Source: a virus
Virus record (IMG/VR): IMGVR_UViG_3300008012_000084
Coordinates: 1 to 33,473 of that record
Direction: 5' to 3' (one strand)
DNA length: 33,473 bases
Positions 20,576 to 27,178 of this stretch are shown in pieces. Both the position numbers and the translations under genes were made by a program. Every line of letters begins with the position of its first letter. Position 1 is the first letter of the stretch. Below the pieces are notes generated by a model. That model ran no database searches and was not told the origin of the DNA. It worked only from the letters and a program-made list of their open reading frames with translations.

Positions 20576-20869
20576 TTAGAGTTCTATCTTAAACCAATCG
20601 AACGTCAAGACCTCACCAGTCTCTTCGTCCGTTGCTTCGCGCTGATATGTTTCAACCTTCGCGGTGTTTGGCAACTTGATTTCGTGTCCTTCTTTGAACC
20701 TCGTCTTCATCTCGTGCCATCCGTAACGTGTGTCACACAATCCTGTGTCACCCATTTCCACACTCCACTTAAGAAGTGCTACGTTACTCTTTTTGTCTTG
20801 CGCAAGTTTATGCACAACCAATGTGATTTCGCCTTTATCCATAAAGCAATCAGTGTTTAGTTCGGACAT
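20576..20869 (-). CDS. Hypothetical protein, 97 aa (paralog of 21670-21966)
   Basis: MSELNTDCFMDKGEITLVVH... ends with TDEETGEVLTFDWFKIEL. It shares the blocks GDTGL-(C/T)-(D/N)-T-(R/K) and DEETGE-(V/M)-L-(T/K)-F-(D/E)-W with the gene at 21670-21966, so the two are paralogs. The frame is open to a GTG at 20953, but that codon sits inside the terminator at 20932-20966, so the ATG at 20867-20869 is preferred. Upstream are two copies of a 13-base motif (see repeats). A single-gene unit bounded by terminators, typical of a moron-like accessory gene. Function unknown. Confidence 0.6.
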   Translation of the reverse strand: MSELNTDCFMDKGEITLVVHKLAQDKKSNVALLKWSVEMGDTGLCDTRYGWHEMKTRFKEGHEIKLPNTAKVETYQREATDEETGEVLTFDWFKIEL

Positions 20870-20887
20870 TCGTTCGTCCTTATATCG

Positions 20888-20931
20888 GGTTCGGACACAA
20901 GTTAAGAGGACTAGTATGCAAGTTAAGAGGA
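20888..20931. repeat. Leader repeats CAAGTTAAGAGGA, two copies 21 bp apart
   Basis: CAAGTTAAGAGGA occurs at 20898-20910 and 20919-20931, 21 bases apart (two helical turns), upstream of the 97-aa gene. A related copy CAAGCTAAGAGGA is at 22035-22047, upstream of the paralog. With the preceding GGTTCG, the first copy (20888-20910) and the 22025-22047 copy match at 20 of 23 positions. Suggests a shared regulator site or leader element (inference). Confidence 0.5.
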
Positions 20932-20966
20932 AAAAAGAAAAAAAAATCCCCACCCAATGGGCGAGG
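20932..20966 (-). terminator. Intrinsic terminator after 51-aa gene
   Basis: In the leftward transcript CCTCGCCC-ATT-GGGTGGGG pairs over 8 bp (two G-U pairs) at 20948-20966 and is followed by ATTTTTTTTTCTTTTTT. This is a textbook Rho-independent terminator, ten bases past the stop of the 51-aa gene. Confidence 0.85.
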
Positions 20967-21669: not shown

Positions 21670-21966
21670 CTACGATTCAACCCACCTGACCCACTCAAAC
21701 TTGAGCATCTCGCCAGTTTCCTCGTCTACACTTTCAGAAGTATAGAACTCTGGAACATAGCCAGTAGGAATCACAATCTCATCACCAAGCTTACGCTTAT
21801 GAGAGTTGCCACTCCACGCCCATTTTGTGTTGGTCAAGCCAGTGTCCCCGATTTCCTCGTGAAAAGCAAGTTGTACACACTGAGCATACTTCTCACCCTT
21901 CTTGAGGTCAGGAATGTAGCTAACTTTAACTGTTAGGATAAAGCAAACACATTTAGGTTCGCACAG
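21670..21966 (-). CDS. Hypothetical protein, 98 aa (paralog of 20576-20869), non-ATG start
   Basis: Contains IGDTGLTNTKWAW and VDEETGEMLKFEWVRW, matching the 97-aa paralog. No in-frame ATG or GTG exists near the start; the next upstream in-frame stop is at 22015-22017. CTG at 21964-21966 lies exactly where the paralog has ATG (TGCGAA versus TCCGAA follows), giving 98 aa; a TTG at 22006-22008 is the other choice and keeps the same ~18-base distance to the leader repeat. Either the gene uses a rare start or it is decaying. Function unknown. Confidence 0.5.
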   Translation of the reverse strand: MCEPKCVCFILTVKVSYIPDLKKGEKYAQCVQLAFHEEIGDTGLTNTKWAWSGNSHKRKLGDEIVIPTGYVPEFYTSESVDEETGEMLKFEWVRWVES

Positions 21967-22024
21967 TAAACTGCACTTCGGGATTAATCTCCCGCTGATT
22001 GTGAGCAATATCGCTCAAAGTTTA

Positions 22025-22103: not shown

Positions 22104-22126
22104 GGTACCCAAATTCACACCCCCGA

Positions 22127-22373
22127 TAATTTTTTTAAAAAATTTTTTAGTGTACACCCTAGCACCAAGAGTGCGTATAGAGAGAAAAAAGGAGTTAAGT
22201 GCTTGAGTATGTGGGTAGTTGGGAAAAAGTTAGTGTACGTGGCGTACACTTTAAGTGTATGAGGGATACACTAAGTCTGATTTCCCAGGAATGTAAGGAA
22301 TTAAAAATGTAATTCCAAATGTTTTATACTTAGTGTATTTTGTCGTATACTTGTAGTGTACGTGTGGTACACT
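22127..22373. promoter_or_regulatory. Candidate operator/origin hub: AT tract plus palindromic sites
   Basis: An A/T-only run (22127-22148) is followed by GTGTACAC (22150-22157) and three spaced palindromes: AGTGTACG-TGG-CGTACACT (22232-22250), AGTGTAT-GAGGG-ATACACT (22254-22272) and AGTGTAC-GTGTG-GTACACT (22355-22373). An imperfect site (AGTGTAT...GTATACT, 22332-22351) and GGAATT/AATTCC (22297-22316) lie between. Site architecture (7-bp arms, 5-bp spacer) suggests a dimeric DNA-binding protein. AT-rich DNA, repeated sites and the adjacent repL gene are also what an origin looks like. Which role it plays is not decided by sequence. It is a ~387-base gene-free gap between divergent blocks. Confidence 0.6.
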
Positions 22374-22395
22374 TAAAGTGCCAAAATTTAGAACT

Positions 22396-22551
22396 ATGTG
22401 GGAGAAACAGCATACAGCACTGGGCTTTCATGCGCCTAGCAAAGAAGTAAGAGTTCTTACTATTTATATTGATAAAAAAGCCGAATGTGTGCTTGAGGTA
22501 CAGCAAGATGGCATGGGTAAGATTGTAAAGCTTAGTTTAGATAGAGTATGA
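22396..22551 (+). CDS. Small protein preceding repL, 51 aa
   Basis: Read from codons: ATG at 22396-22398 to TGA at 22549-22551, overlapping the repL ATG as ATGA. MWEKQHTALGFHAPSKEVRV...IVKLSLDRV, with alternating hydrophobics in RVLTIYIDKKAECVLEVQQD suggesting a small beta protein. It is the first rightward gene, 22 bases after the last palindrome. Translational coupling suggests it is made with RepL, maybe regulating it (inference). No family recognised. Confidence 0.65.
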   Translation: MWEKQHTALGFHAPSKEVRVLTIYIDKKAECVLEVQQDGMGKIVKLSLDRV

Positions 22552-23358: not shown

Positions 23359-23667
23359 ATGCAAGCAGAGAAAGAAGGGTTTGTATTTAGATTATACGAT
23401 TTCAAAAGCGAGGAACACTACCAAACTATAAAGTTTACTGAGAAGAATTCAGACGGTACCTTTAACCCGGGTACTACGAACGAAGAAGTGGTGCAGATGT
23501 TAATCGACCGCTTATATTTTTTACAAAAGAATAATTGGTCTGCAGAGAATGCAACGATTATTATATTGTTGAAGAGCGTTAGACAGTTATTGGCAAAACG
23601 CTTAAGTAGAAAAATAGAAAAGGTTAAGAAGTATAATGAACAGGGTAGTTCGGATACCAACAAGTGA
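23359..23667 (+). CDS. Hypothetical protein, 102 aa
   Basis: MQAEKEGFVFRLYDFKSEEH... compact domain with YQTIKFTEKNSDGTFNPGTT and a helical second half (NEEVVQMLIDRLYFLQKNNW, LKSVRQLLAKRLSRKIEKVK). The last part is Lys/Arg-rich, suggesting nucleic-acid or nucleoprotein contact. Follows a possible promoter and overlaps the next gene by 32 bases. Not recognised. Confidence 0.6.
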   Translation: MQAEKEGFVFRLYDFKSEEHYQTIKFTEKNSDGTFNPGTTNEEVVQMLIDRLYFLQKNNWSAENATIIILLKSVRQLLAKRLSRKIEKVKKYNEQGSSDTNK

Positions 23668-23974
23668 CAGAAGTCTAGTCAGAGATTACGTACGAGCAAT
23701 TAACGGAATCCTTAAACTCACAGATCGTGAGGTTGAGGTGGTTGCTGCTTTTATACGTTACGATCAAGAGAATGCTGCAACGCCTTCTGCGCGTAAGTAC
23801 GTAGCAGAGGAGCTGGAGATGAAATCGGTTGCAGTATTAAACAATTTTGTGAAAGCATTAAAAGATAAAGGCGTGATAGTTGCTGTACCTAATGAGCGAA
23901 ATAAGTATACGTATCATCCTATTATAAGGAACATAAATAATGATGTTTGCATACAGATCCAATTTGAAACCTGA
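23636..23974 (+). CDS. Winged-helix DNA-binding-like protein, 112 aa
   Basis: Helix-turn-helix/winged pattern: LKLTDREVEVVAAFIRYDQE, SARKYVAEELEMKSVAVLNN (helix 3-like), FVKALKDKGVIVAVPNERNK as the wing leading to a final strand. This order of three helices and a hairpin wing is typical of MarR/ROK-type wHTH proteins. Probably a regulator of late genes, or of repL, by position. Overlaps both neighbours (32 and 35 bases). Confidence 0.6.
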   Translation: MNRVVRIPTSDRSLVRDYVRAINGILKLTDREVEVVAAFIRYDQENAATPSARKYVAEELEMKSVAVLNNFVKALKDKGVIVAVPNERNKYTYHPIIRNINNDVCIQIQFET

Positions 23975-24158
23975 AGAGTATATAGTTGAATATGTGTTTA
24001 TGCTCGAGGATACTCGAACAATGTTTAGGTTTATTCAACATCAAGAAACATTTCTTTATGAAGCAGATTTAATTTACACGCACGAGATAGAGTTAAATGA
24101 AGAAAACGACTGGGTATTGAGATTTTTTATATCAAGAAAAGATGGCGAAGAGGAATGA
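23940..24158 (+). CDS. Hypothetical protein, 72 aa
   Basis: MMFAYRSNLKPEEYIVEYVF... small protein with strands MFRFIQHQETFLYEADLIYT and ELNEENDWVLRFFISRKDGE. Overlaps the winged-helix gene by 35 bases and the IHF-like gene by 17, so it is tied into the message. No family recognised. Confidence 0.55.
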   Translation: MMFAYRSNLKPEEYIVEYVFMLEDTRTMFRFIQHQETFLYEADLIYTHEIELNEENDWVLRFFISRKDGEEE

Positions 24159-24393
24159 AGTAAAGCAAGAAATATATAGAGAGGTAGCAGCAGAAACTGG
24201 AGGCACTATACAAGAGATTCAAAAATGTGTAGAGGCTCAGTTTAGTTTTATAGAGAAGATTATAAAACGCGGAGAGTTTGATACTGTTCGCATGCCATAC
24301 TTAGCAAAGTTTTCAGTGAAACCAGGTAGAGTTAAAATGTTAAATAATAAGAATGCGATTATTCAGAGAAGAAAACTTTCAGGTAATAGTTGA
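24142..24393 (+). CDS. IHF/HU-like DNA-bending protein
   Basis: 83 aa. Helices VKQEIYREVAAETGGTIQEI and CVEAQFSFIEKIIKRGEFDT are followed by VRMPYLAKFSVKPGRVKMLN, the same order as HU/IHF (two helices, then V-L/M-P-G/Y-F/K-x-KP-R). IHF-like proteins bend DNA to assist terminase docking, replication or transcription. Crassvirales encode IHF-like subunits near the terminase, and here TerL follows two genes later. Confidence 0.7.
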   Translation: MAKRNEVKQEIYREVAAETGGTIQEIQKCVEAQFSFIEKIIKRGEFDTVRMPYLAKFSVKPGRVKMLNNKNAIIQRRKLSGNS

Positions 24394-25195: not shown

Positions 25196-27178
25196 ATGTT
25201 TACAAACACAGAAGAATTTAGAAGAGAAGCCCAGCATTTCCTAAAACATGGGTACTACTGCCCAGATACTCCCGGATCTGTTGCACACTTTGAGTATTGG
25301 CAGGAACAATTGCGCCGATGCAAAGAAGGGTTTACTGTAGGCGACACTCATATTACAGGTCACCACTATTTCTATCTAAACTTTTGCCAAATTAAACTAA
25401 CGCGTATTAAAGGCGAAGAAAAGGTTGTAAAGAATGCAAGTAAGATTGTAAGCTTTCCTGATTTCTGGGACGGAGACTATGAGTTCTTCACAGCTTTAGA
25501 AGAAGCGCGCAAACAAGGCAAGCATATGATTGTAGGTAAAGCCCGTCGTAAAGGATTTTCCTACAAGAACTCTGCGGTATCTACTAATACCTACAATACA
25601 GTTAAGAACAGCTACACATTACTCTGTGCTCATGACAAAAAGTACCTATATCCAAAAGGTATTATGACAATGACTGTAGATCACATGAACTTTTTAAATG
25701 AGCACACTGCTTGGTCAAAAAGACGCCAGGCTGTAGATAAGCAAAATCACAAACGTGCTAGCTTTTATGAGTATATCAATGGGCAACCCGTAGAGCGTGG
25801 TTATAAGTCTGAGGTAGAGGCGTTGACCTTTAAGGATAATCCTGACGCTGCAAGAGGTAAAGATGCCACGCTTGTAATATTTGAAGAGTGTGGAGCCTTT
25901 GACAATCTTAAGGATTCGTTTATGGCTACTAAACCAACAGTAGAAGACGGGGGTGTTACGACGGGTCAAATGATTTTATTTGGTACGGGTGGTGATATGG
26001 AAGGAGGAACTATTGATTTTGAAAGCATGTTCTACAATCCTGATACATACAATCTTTATGCCTTTGATAACGTTTGGGATGAAGGAGCTCATGGTACTTC
26101 TTGTGGATTTTTCTTTCCGGATTTTAGAAATAAAGTAGGCTTTATGGATAAGCACGGAAACTCTTTAGTTTCTGATGCAAAATTAGCCGAAGAAGCAAAA
26201 CGTGAAAACATAAAAAGAACTTCTAAAGATGCAGGTGTTATTGATAAGCATGTTACTGAGTATCCTTTTAATCCTAAAGAAGCCTTCCTGCAGAAAAGCG
26301 GTAATGTATTTCCTACAGCTGCTCTTGTTGAGCATCGTAACAATATTATGCGTACTGGGGTTTTTAAGAATATTGGAGTTAATGGGTATCTGGCTAGGCT
26401 ACAGTCCGGTGTAAAGTTTAAACCTAATCAGAATGCAATACCCATACTTAAATTTCCACATGATAAAGGATCTAATACAGAAGGATGTATAGTTGTTTAT
26501 CAAAGTCCTTACACAGATGAATCTGGTACTATTCCGGATAATATGTATATCATAGTTCATGATCCTTATGCGCAAGATGGAGGTAGTGGTAAATCGCTTG
26601 GAGCTGCGTATATAATCAAGCGTGTAAACCCTATATCAAAGCCGGACGATATGATTGTAGCAAGTTACATTGGGCGACCACAAACTCAAGACGAGTATAA
26701 TTACAATTTATTTTTACTTGCAGAGTATTATAATGCGCGAATTGGTTTTGAAAATGATCGAGGTGAAGTAGTACCTTATGCAAAAAGAACAAGAAATTTA
26801 AAATGGTTATTGCCTGAAGCAGAAATATTTAGTAAGACCGATGGTGTTAGTATTCGTAAGCTAGGACGTACGTATGGAACCTCTATGGGATCTAAAGAAC
26901 GTAAGGGTCAGGCAGAAATATACTTACGAGATTGGCTTAGAACTCCTCGTGGTGTTTCAGAGTCTGGTGAAAAAAAGTTAAATTTGCATTATATTTACGA
27001 CTTAGCATTACTAGACGAACTTATAAAGTATAACCGAAGAGGCAACTTCGATAGGGTTTCAGCATTACTCGTTGGTATGTTTCATCTTATTGCGTTATTT
27101 AACAGAACAGTTGAAATCGCAGAAGAAGCTGATTATAATACTAATGACTCATTTTTTAATCGTGAATTGTTTACGTAA
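25196..27178 (+). CDS. terL: Terminase large subunit
   Basis: 660 aa. ATPase: Walker A GKARRKGFS (114-122), Walker B TLVIFEECGAF (225-235; catalytic Glu) and coupling motif ILFGTGGDMEG (260-270). Nuclease: VHDPYAQDG (454-462; D456), FENDRGEV (518-525; acidic pair) and NFDRVSALLVGM (617-628; final Asp). All three nuclease acidic motifs and the ATPase are intact. It packages DNA into preformed heads and cuts it, docking on the portal encoded next. The ATG is one base after the preceding stop. Confidence 0.93.
   Translation: MFTNTEEFRREAQHFLKHGYYCPDTPGSVAHFEYWQEQLRRCKEGFTVGDTHITGHHYFYLNFCQIKLTRIKGEEKVVKNASKIVSFPDFWDGDYEFFTALEEARKQGKHMIVGKARRKGFSYKNSAVSTNTYNTVKNSYTLLCAHDKKYLYPKGIMTMTVDHMNFLNEHTAWSKRRQAVDKQNHKRASFYEYINGQPVERGYKSEVEALTFKDNPDAARGKDATLVIFEECGAFDNLKDSFMATKPTVEDGGVTTGQMILFGTGGDMEGGTIDFESMFYNPDTYNLYAFDNVWDEGAHGTSCGFFFPDFRNKVGFMDKHGNSLVSDAKLAEEAKRENIKRTSKDAGVIDKHVTEYPFNPKEAFLQKSGNVFPTAALVEHRNNIMRTGVFKNIGVNGYLARLQSGVKFKPNQNAIPILKFPHDKGSNTEGCIVVYQSPYTDESGTIPDNMYIIVHDPYAQDGGSGKSLGAAYIIKRVNPISKPDDMIVASYIGRPQTQDEYNYNLFLLAEYYNARIGFENDRGEVVPYAKRTRNLKWLLPEAEIFSKTDGVSIRKLGRTYGTSMGSKERKGQAEIYLRDWLRTPRGVSESGEKKLNLHYIYDLALLDELIKYNRRGNFDRVSALLVGMFHLIALFNRTVEIAEEADYNTNDSFFNRELFT

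Follow-up and report, generated by a model that had tools for sequence, protein, structure and literature searches.

A 22-bp-phased palindrome array conserved upstream of repL in crAss-like phages, probably a landing array for RepL

Several AGTGTAC palindromes lie at the strand switch of a phage genome, a short distance upstream of a gene for a RepL-family protein. They raise the question of which protein binds them, and whether they serve in transcriptional control, in replication initiation or in both. The window, by which we mean the whole 33,473-base stretch analysed, is a complete IMG/VR virus record, possibly a genome fragment. By sequence it is that of a crAss-like phage, with a terminase (25196-27178) that matches PHROG 6681 at 9e-140 and is about 38% identical to those of the crAss-like Fpv20 and cr114_1. 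The mode of replication of Crassvirales was given as unknown in a 2023 review (PMC10136315).

Anatomy of the array at the strand switch

The window was re-read, with the following features (in order of position):

22126..22149, no strand: A/T-only tract; candidate unwinding element, doubtful as a member of the array
22150..22157, no strand: GTGTACAC; not conserved in relatives
22232..22250, no strand: s1 (cluster I), AGTGTACGTGGCGTACACT, perfect dyad; conserved in L004-L007, homologous sites in L031, L083, the L073 clade and L178
22254..22272, no strand: s2 (cluster I), AGTGTATGAGGGATACACT, 22 bp after s1; a 22-bp-phased pair arose in 0 of 200 shuffles
22332..22351, no strand: s4 (cluster II), 20-bp imperfect dyad AGTGTATTTTGTCGTATACT; conserved in L004-L008
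22346..22353, plus strand: probable -7 promoter box, TATACTTG, by consensus only; one mismatch to the Bacteroidota TAnnTTTG, overlaps s4
22355..22373, no strand: s5 (cluster II), AGTGTACGTGTGGTACACT, over the expected transcription start
22377..22395, no strand: s6 (cluster II), degenerate AGTGCCAAAATTTAGAACT, 22 bp after s5
22396..22551, plus strand: first rightward ORF, 51 codons; no family match, absent in L083
22548..22985, plus strand: repL, 145-aa RepL-family (PF05732) winged-helix protein; proposed ligand of the sites

The first-pass annotation had reported three palindromes with arms of 7-8 bp and spacers of 3-5 bp (22232-22250, 22254-22272 and 22355-22373), an imperfect site at 22332-22351 and GTGTACAC at 22150-22157, and all were found at exactly these positions. 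Site s1 reads AGTGTACG-TGG-CGTACACT, with 8-bp arms, or 7-bp arms and a 5-bp spacer; s2 and s5 are both 7+5+7. The array is larger than had been noted, with a further degenerate member at 22377-22395 in the same 22-bp register. We count five sites in two clusters (the label s3 is unused), with 3-bp gaps between neighbours within a cluster. Cluster I (s1-s2, 22232-22272) holds two 19-bp sites whose starts are 22 bp apart, and in cluster II (s4-s5-s6, 22332-22395) the starts are 23 and 22 bp apart. The end of s6 abuts the ATG (22396) of the 51-codon ORF. Dyads s4-s6 thus overlap a -7-like box, matched to the published Bacteroidota consensus TAnnTTTG (PMC9723704), and extend to the first ATG of the operon, the promoter being assigned by consensus alone.

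Other points of the earlier description also needed correction. The A/T-only tract placed at 22127-22148 is there, but it runs from 22126 to 22149 (24 nt); it is the sole A/T run of at least 18 in the window, has similar counterparts in L004 and L005, and is absent in L006 and L007. Nor does repL adjoin the array as the first rightward gene, since the 51-codon ORF comes first and repL second, with a GroES-like gene downstream of both. GTGTACAC probably lies outside the array.

A lone palindrome with 7-bp arms is unremarkable, as the window has 61 of them. The pattern AGTGTAY-N5-RTACACT, however, has three copies at the locus and none elsewhere in the 33.5 kb or in the reversed control, and none was found elsewhere in a related 63.6-kb record. 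Of 300 dinucleotide shuffles, one contained three 6+N7+6 palindromes sharing an arm, whatever its letters, in a 200-bp span. The palindromes are real and, taken together, beyond chance. AGTGTAC was also considered as a genome-wide motif and was dropped, with six copies outside the cluster against about five expected for the whole window. The region had no blastn match in the phage collection, and Rfam gave chance matches only, far below the cut-offs.

Conservation of the array and its association with repL

The idea of a functional hub at this locus had been made to depend on conserved arms and spacing, and when relatives were aligned both proved to be conserved. Relatives that encode RepL retain the array, in altered letters, down to a RepL identity of 43%. 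In clade A (L004-L008; RepL 68-88% identical) the sites, their order and their spacing are retained, as are the outer AGTGCC and GAACT of s6. The gap between clusters varies, with s2-s4 start-to-start distances of 78 bp in the window, 90 in L004 and 135 in L008, and cluster I of L008 has three tandem sites (2556, 2579 and 2601), one half-site being the AGGTGCG typical of clade B. That clade (L031, L032; RepL 56%) combines AGGTGCG with AGTGTAC/T half-sites and has AGGTGCCAGATTTTGGCACT in s6; in L032 cluster I is missing. Clade C (L083, L163; RepL 51%) has the arms AGGATAC/GTATCCT, and in L083 the 51-codon ORF is missing and the repL ATG falls inside s6. The s4 counterpart in L031, L032 and L083 holds a perfect TAnnTTTG box, TATATTTG. 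Clade D (L073 and kin; RepL 43-48%) has cluster I alone, as TTAAAGGTGACTGAGNTGTACC twice, 22 bp apart, and a perfect TATTTTTG just upstream of the first ATG. Cluster I is the part that is retained in the largest number of clades.

The changes of letters are coordinated, such that half-sites that read AGTGTAC in clade A read AGGATAC in five of the six half-sites of L083 s1, s2 and s5. What is invariant across clades is the 22-bp register and a TTAAAG-like junction rather than perfect symmetry, the dyads being strong in clades A and C and weak in B and D. Strict covariation of the arms was rejected, because complementarity over all sites and clades was not significant (74 paired against 67.6 in shuffles, 618/5000).

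A RepL profile search of the records of 35 relatives detected repL in 10, and a 22-bp-phased pair stood out beyond 200 shuffles in eight of the 11 repL-bearing loci tested first. In a set of 21 RepL loci from IMG/VR, every upstream region examined has the array in one of the clade forms (L176, which is cut off upstream, and L167 were left out of this count). A scan of bacterial genomes for further RepL loci yielded two. One, a fragment in MAG UBA10340 (L177), belongs to clade A and has the array. In the other, Zeaxanthinibacter sp. PT1 (L178; RepL 45%), repL is encoded about 1.6 kb downstream of the strand switch, which lies at contig position about 990.8 kb. There were no sites directly upstream of that repL; the pair, AGGTGACGTGACGTAACCT-TGA-AGGTGATGTGAGGTCACCT, stands at the strand switch with a spacing of 22 bp and occurs nowhere else in the genome.

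Conversely, none of eight repL-lacking strand-switch regions (L067, L042, L044, L086, L054, L035, L061 and L099) showed a phased pair above shuffles. The p102 ORF and TerL are present in these loci, and so, according to tblastn, are the genes for the winged-helix and IHF-like proteins. The 51-codon ORF is missing in L083, groES was undetected in the L073 clade, and the winged-helix and IHF-like genes persist without the array, leaving RepL as the only tested neighbour, within the available locus fragments, that tracks it. On the TerL tree the distribution of repL requires three changes, of which well-supported branches make two unavoidable, and in every case the array goes with repL; this amounts to only two to three independent gain or loss events behind the co-occurrence (sign test p = 0.5), too few for a formal test. 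Presence and absence across relatives thus support the link between array and repL that the first-pass annotation had drawn. Since the array is kept with RepL and was not found in the eight repL-lacking regions, RepL is the likely ligand, and the sites are probably its landing array.

RepL scores 25.7 bits against Pfam PF05732 (curated cut-off 20.3) over residues 66-136, and the family match at E 0.01 is seen in just four of 12 relatives. An AlphaFold model, of moderate mean confidence (pLDDT 70) and showing no dimer, is confident over about residues 50-122, where a helix-helix-recognition helix-wing succession forms a winged-helix/HTH domain. Matches in the PDB were generic winged helices, none below E 0.001. 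At 145 aa and with a single winged helix, RepL differs from Rep_3/RepA-type initiators, which have two such domains.

Transcriptional control, replication and rival readings

We suggest, with a probability of about 0.55, that the palindromes are RepL sites which would serve autoregulation at cluster II and initiation at cluster I. RepL dimers would bind cluster II, covering the -7 box, the expected start site and the DNA up to the operon's start codon, and its occupancy would repress RepL's own synthesis. RepL would also bind cluster I, the iteron-like pair, where an initiation complex would most likely be assembled, admitting the phage DnaB-like helicase and primase. Taken without the origin step, which is the least certain part, a RepL-binding array with autoregulation is in our judgement more probable than not. 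The suggestion in the first-pass annotation that two-fold sites at a divergence point could be operators is supported for cluster II, which overlaps the consensus-predicted promoter. Because the L073 clade lacks cluster II, autoregulation through promoter overlap would not be universal.

For the alternative suggestion, a replication origin, the signs are mixed. GC skew and the strand switch have reportedly been described before for crAss-like phages. In the window the minimum of the cumulative G-C skew (22166) lies 66 bp from s1; two clade A relatives have theirs 121 and 793 bp from s1. Skew was at one stage taken as proof of an origin, when a first set of repL-lacking relatives had no flip, and this was withdrawn when a wider set (G005, G015 and G022) showed the same flip at the strand switch; the skew is therefore compatible with an origin but is not evidence that the RepL sites are one. 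The A/T tract is not conserved throughout, and no DnaA-like box (TTWTNCACA) lies within 1 kb, the four in the window comparing with 4.2 expected. On the positive side, the array shows one feature of iteron-type origins, namely two or more direct repeats of 17-22 bp in helical register near an initiator gene, here at 22 and 23/22 bp and conserved. The window also encodes DnaG-like, DnaB-like and PolA-like proteins, so an initiator would have a helicase to load. Origin activity is plausible, and the array may also be a RepL-dependent origin. A separate observation concerns five other repL-lacking relatives (G021, G009, G018, G026 and G029), in which the skew does not flip at the strand switch and has its minimum about 6-9 kb to the left; the differing skew among repL-lacking relatives hints at different initiation sites within one phage group.

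The array could instead consist of operators only, a control region of divergent early promoters at which RepL, or a different dimeric regulator, would act as repressor or activator, possibly a lysis-lysogeny switch, with no origin function. The overlap of cluster II with the promoter and its extension to the start codon agree with this, as does the weak resemblance of RepL to GntR-type winged helices, and a master switch at the divergence point would fit an apparent prophage with an integrase among the relatives. Yet cluster I lies at least 78 bp upstream of the promoter site, with a helical phase that is not fixed, and it is the sole part present in the L073 clade, whose TATTTTTG promoter is clear of any site, and RepL scores above the cut-off for a replication-initiator family; we consider operators alone to be a possible but rather doubtful explanation. 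Dyads are bound by many regulators of the LexA-like winged-helix and IHF-like class. A conserved crAss-like pair of this kind, both members predicted to bind DNA, is encoded nearby, and the LexA-like member (23636-23974) had been put forward in the first-pass annotation as a possible binder. It is an unlikely ligand, because its gene is kept in relatives where the array was not found; the same applies to the IHF-like protein (24142-24393), and we give the pair little credence.

The inverted repeats could act as RNA or single-stranded DNA hairpins, that is, as a terminator, a leader structure or a single-strand origin for rolling-circle replication, given that s1 would form a terminator-like hairpin on the minus strand and that the RepL plasmids of staphylococci are rolling-circle (PMC5703833). 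Letters that change together across all copies within L083, however, are what a shared ligand would produce, whereas hairpins acting independently would not be expected to change in concert. Clades B and D have also lost arm complementarity but retain the 22-bp register and TTAAAG-type junctions, which makes hairpins very improbable. Recombinase sites of the att or res type have in their favour the tyrosine recombinases that some relatives encode near the strand switch: Phage_integrase-domain ORFs are present in L031, in L061 and in the Zeaxanthinibacter prophage, and L032 has a probable one upstream of its sites. But in loci of clades A, C and D no recombinase-like ORF came to notice close to the sites, and the att of the prophage, a 50-bp segment of tRNA-Met, is 7.8 kb away from the array, so that this seems the most remote of the explanations considered. 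Recombinase-site and MerR-type readings had also been set aside for the window itself, which has no supporting gene near the sites.

Known systems, distant phages and temperate relatives

The organization resembles that of iteron plasmid origins (R6K, pPS10, F and P1), which likewise have direct repeats of about 22 bp beside the gene for a winged-helix initiator, and whose rep promoter is covered by a related operator of inverted repeats (PMC4980987, PMC4857107). Iterons measure 17-22 bp, those of R6K and pPS10 being 22 bp, and there are two in ColE2 (PMC4980987); the rep operator is bound by Rep dimers, for repression, and the iterons by monomers (PMC4857107). Unlike these systems, RepL belongs to another family with a single winged helix, cluster I has two repeats only, and the array stands at a phage strand switch without a nearby DnaA-like box or an A/T element conserved throughout. 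RepL/pSN2-family plasmids of staphylococci share the Pfam family (PF05732), with an HTH protein of about 18 kDa, and commonly a short ORF; in contrast to the array, they are classed as rolling-circle and not iteron-type, their origin being recognised by similarity to other RCR plasmids, and the accessible part of that report mentions no phased palindrome array (PMC5703833). A tblastn search with RepL against plasmids gave no match. In a literature search that was not exhaustive, we found no cis-acting initiator-site array described for crAss-like phages. What would be new is the phage group and the initiator family. The array provides a specific, conserved candidate control region with exact coordinates and a named, proposed protein partner, as well as a sequence-based way to predict where the RepL control region lies in the genomes of uncultured crAss-like phages.

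More distant phages resemble the window in layout. Dulem virus 41 (PP511520) has RepL near the strand switch and tandem palindromes upstream, with AACTCACTATATAGTG twice, 21 bp apart, and a TAnnTTTG-type box (TATCTTTG), but the letters differ (CACTATATAGTG) and its RepL is 39% identical over only 51 residues. In p-crAssphage (Carjivirus communis BK010471) a 34-bp direct repeat, two copies 43 bp apart, precedes RepL gp88, the first gene past the strand switch, although the repeat sequence and spacing differ from those of the window; its second RepL copy (gp43) has no comparable 20-23-bp-phased repeat. As far as the sequences tell, it is architecture only that these two phages share with the window array. 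The best phased-pair candidate in the RepL-bearing gut phage MT835539 was not beyond shuffles, and the crAss-like cr114_1, which has no Pfam RepL match, showed no phased pair at its strand switch. We tentatively raise the broader idea that RepL and 22-bp-phased sites might form a mobile replicon cassette located where the arms meet in many crAss-like phages; p-crAssphage and Dulem virus 41 would have it too, in different letters. The cassette would be their RepL-dependent origin, its own sites would also mediate autoregulation, and it would be exchanged or lost whole. Two crAss phages have repeats of a half-site, GGAATANATTTCG, upstream of the RepL gene at the strand switch, as direct repeats in p-crAssphage (L116 12017-12093; BK010471 96016-96092) and as a near-perfect palindrome in CrAssphage ZA (L121 1918-1950).

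In the 2023 review (PMC10136315) crAss-like phages were regarded as strictly lytic, and two incomplete epsilon-type prophages were reported in 2024 (PMC11054128). Zeaxanthinibacter sp. PT1 carries an apparently integrated crAss-like prophage of about 91 kb in a flavobacterial chromosome (L182/L183; NZ_JAQPCN010000001.1 907589-998656). Its ends are a 50-bp direct repeat overlapping a tRNA-Met gene, it encodes a 442-aa Phage_integrase-domain protein of the tyrosine-integrase family (997091-998419, minus strand), and it has RepL and a TerL 67% identical to that of the window. In further environmental crAss-like fragments, Phage_integrase-family ORFs also occur near the strand switch, at L031 3029-4216 and L061 431-1726 (minus strand), both confirmed by Pfam, and one ending near 2790 in L032 was assigned by eye. 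These loci suggest that temperate members are not rare in this group. In L061, a locus without repL, repeated GGTGCGGTA/TACCGCACC elements at 1815-2140, between the recombinase gene and p102, are possibly recombinase binding sites. On the other side of the strand switch, the first leftward ORF of the window (21670-22008, minus strand) resembles the ORF at 20576-20953 and has no convincing start codon; the 250 bp upstream of it hold many GC hairpins and resemble a structured leader, and the leftward leader of the L073 clade contains a strongly conserved block, GGAGGGGGAGTTTACATTAGGTGGTATATGCATTCACAATTTTAGAT.
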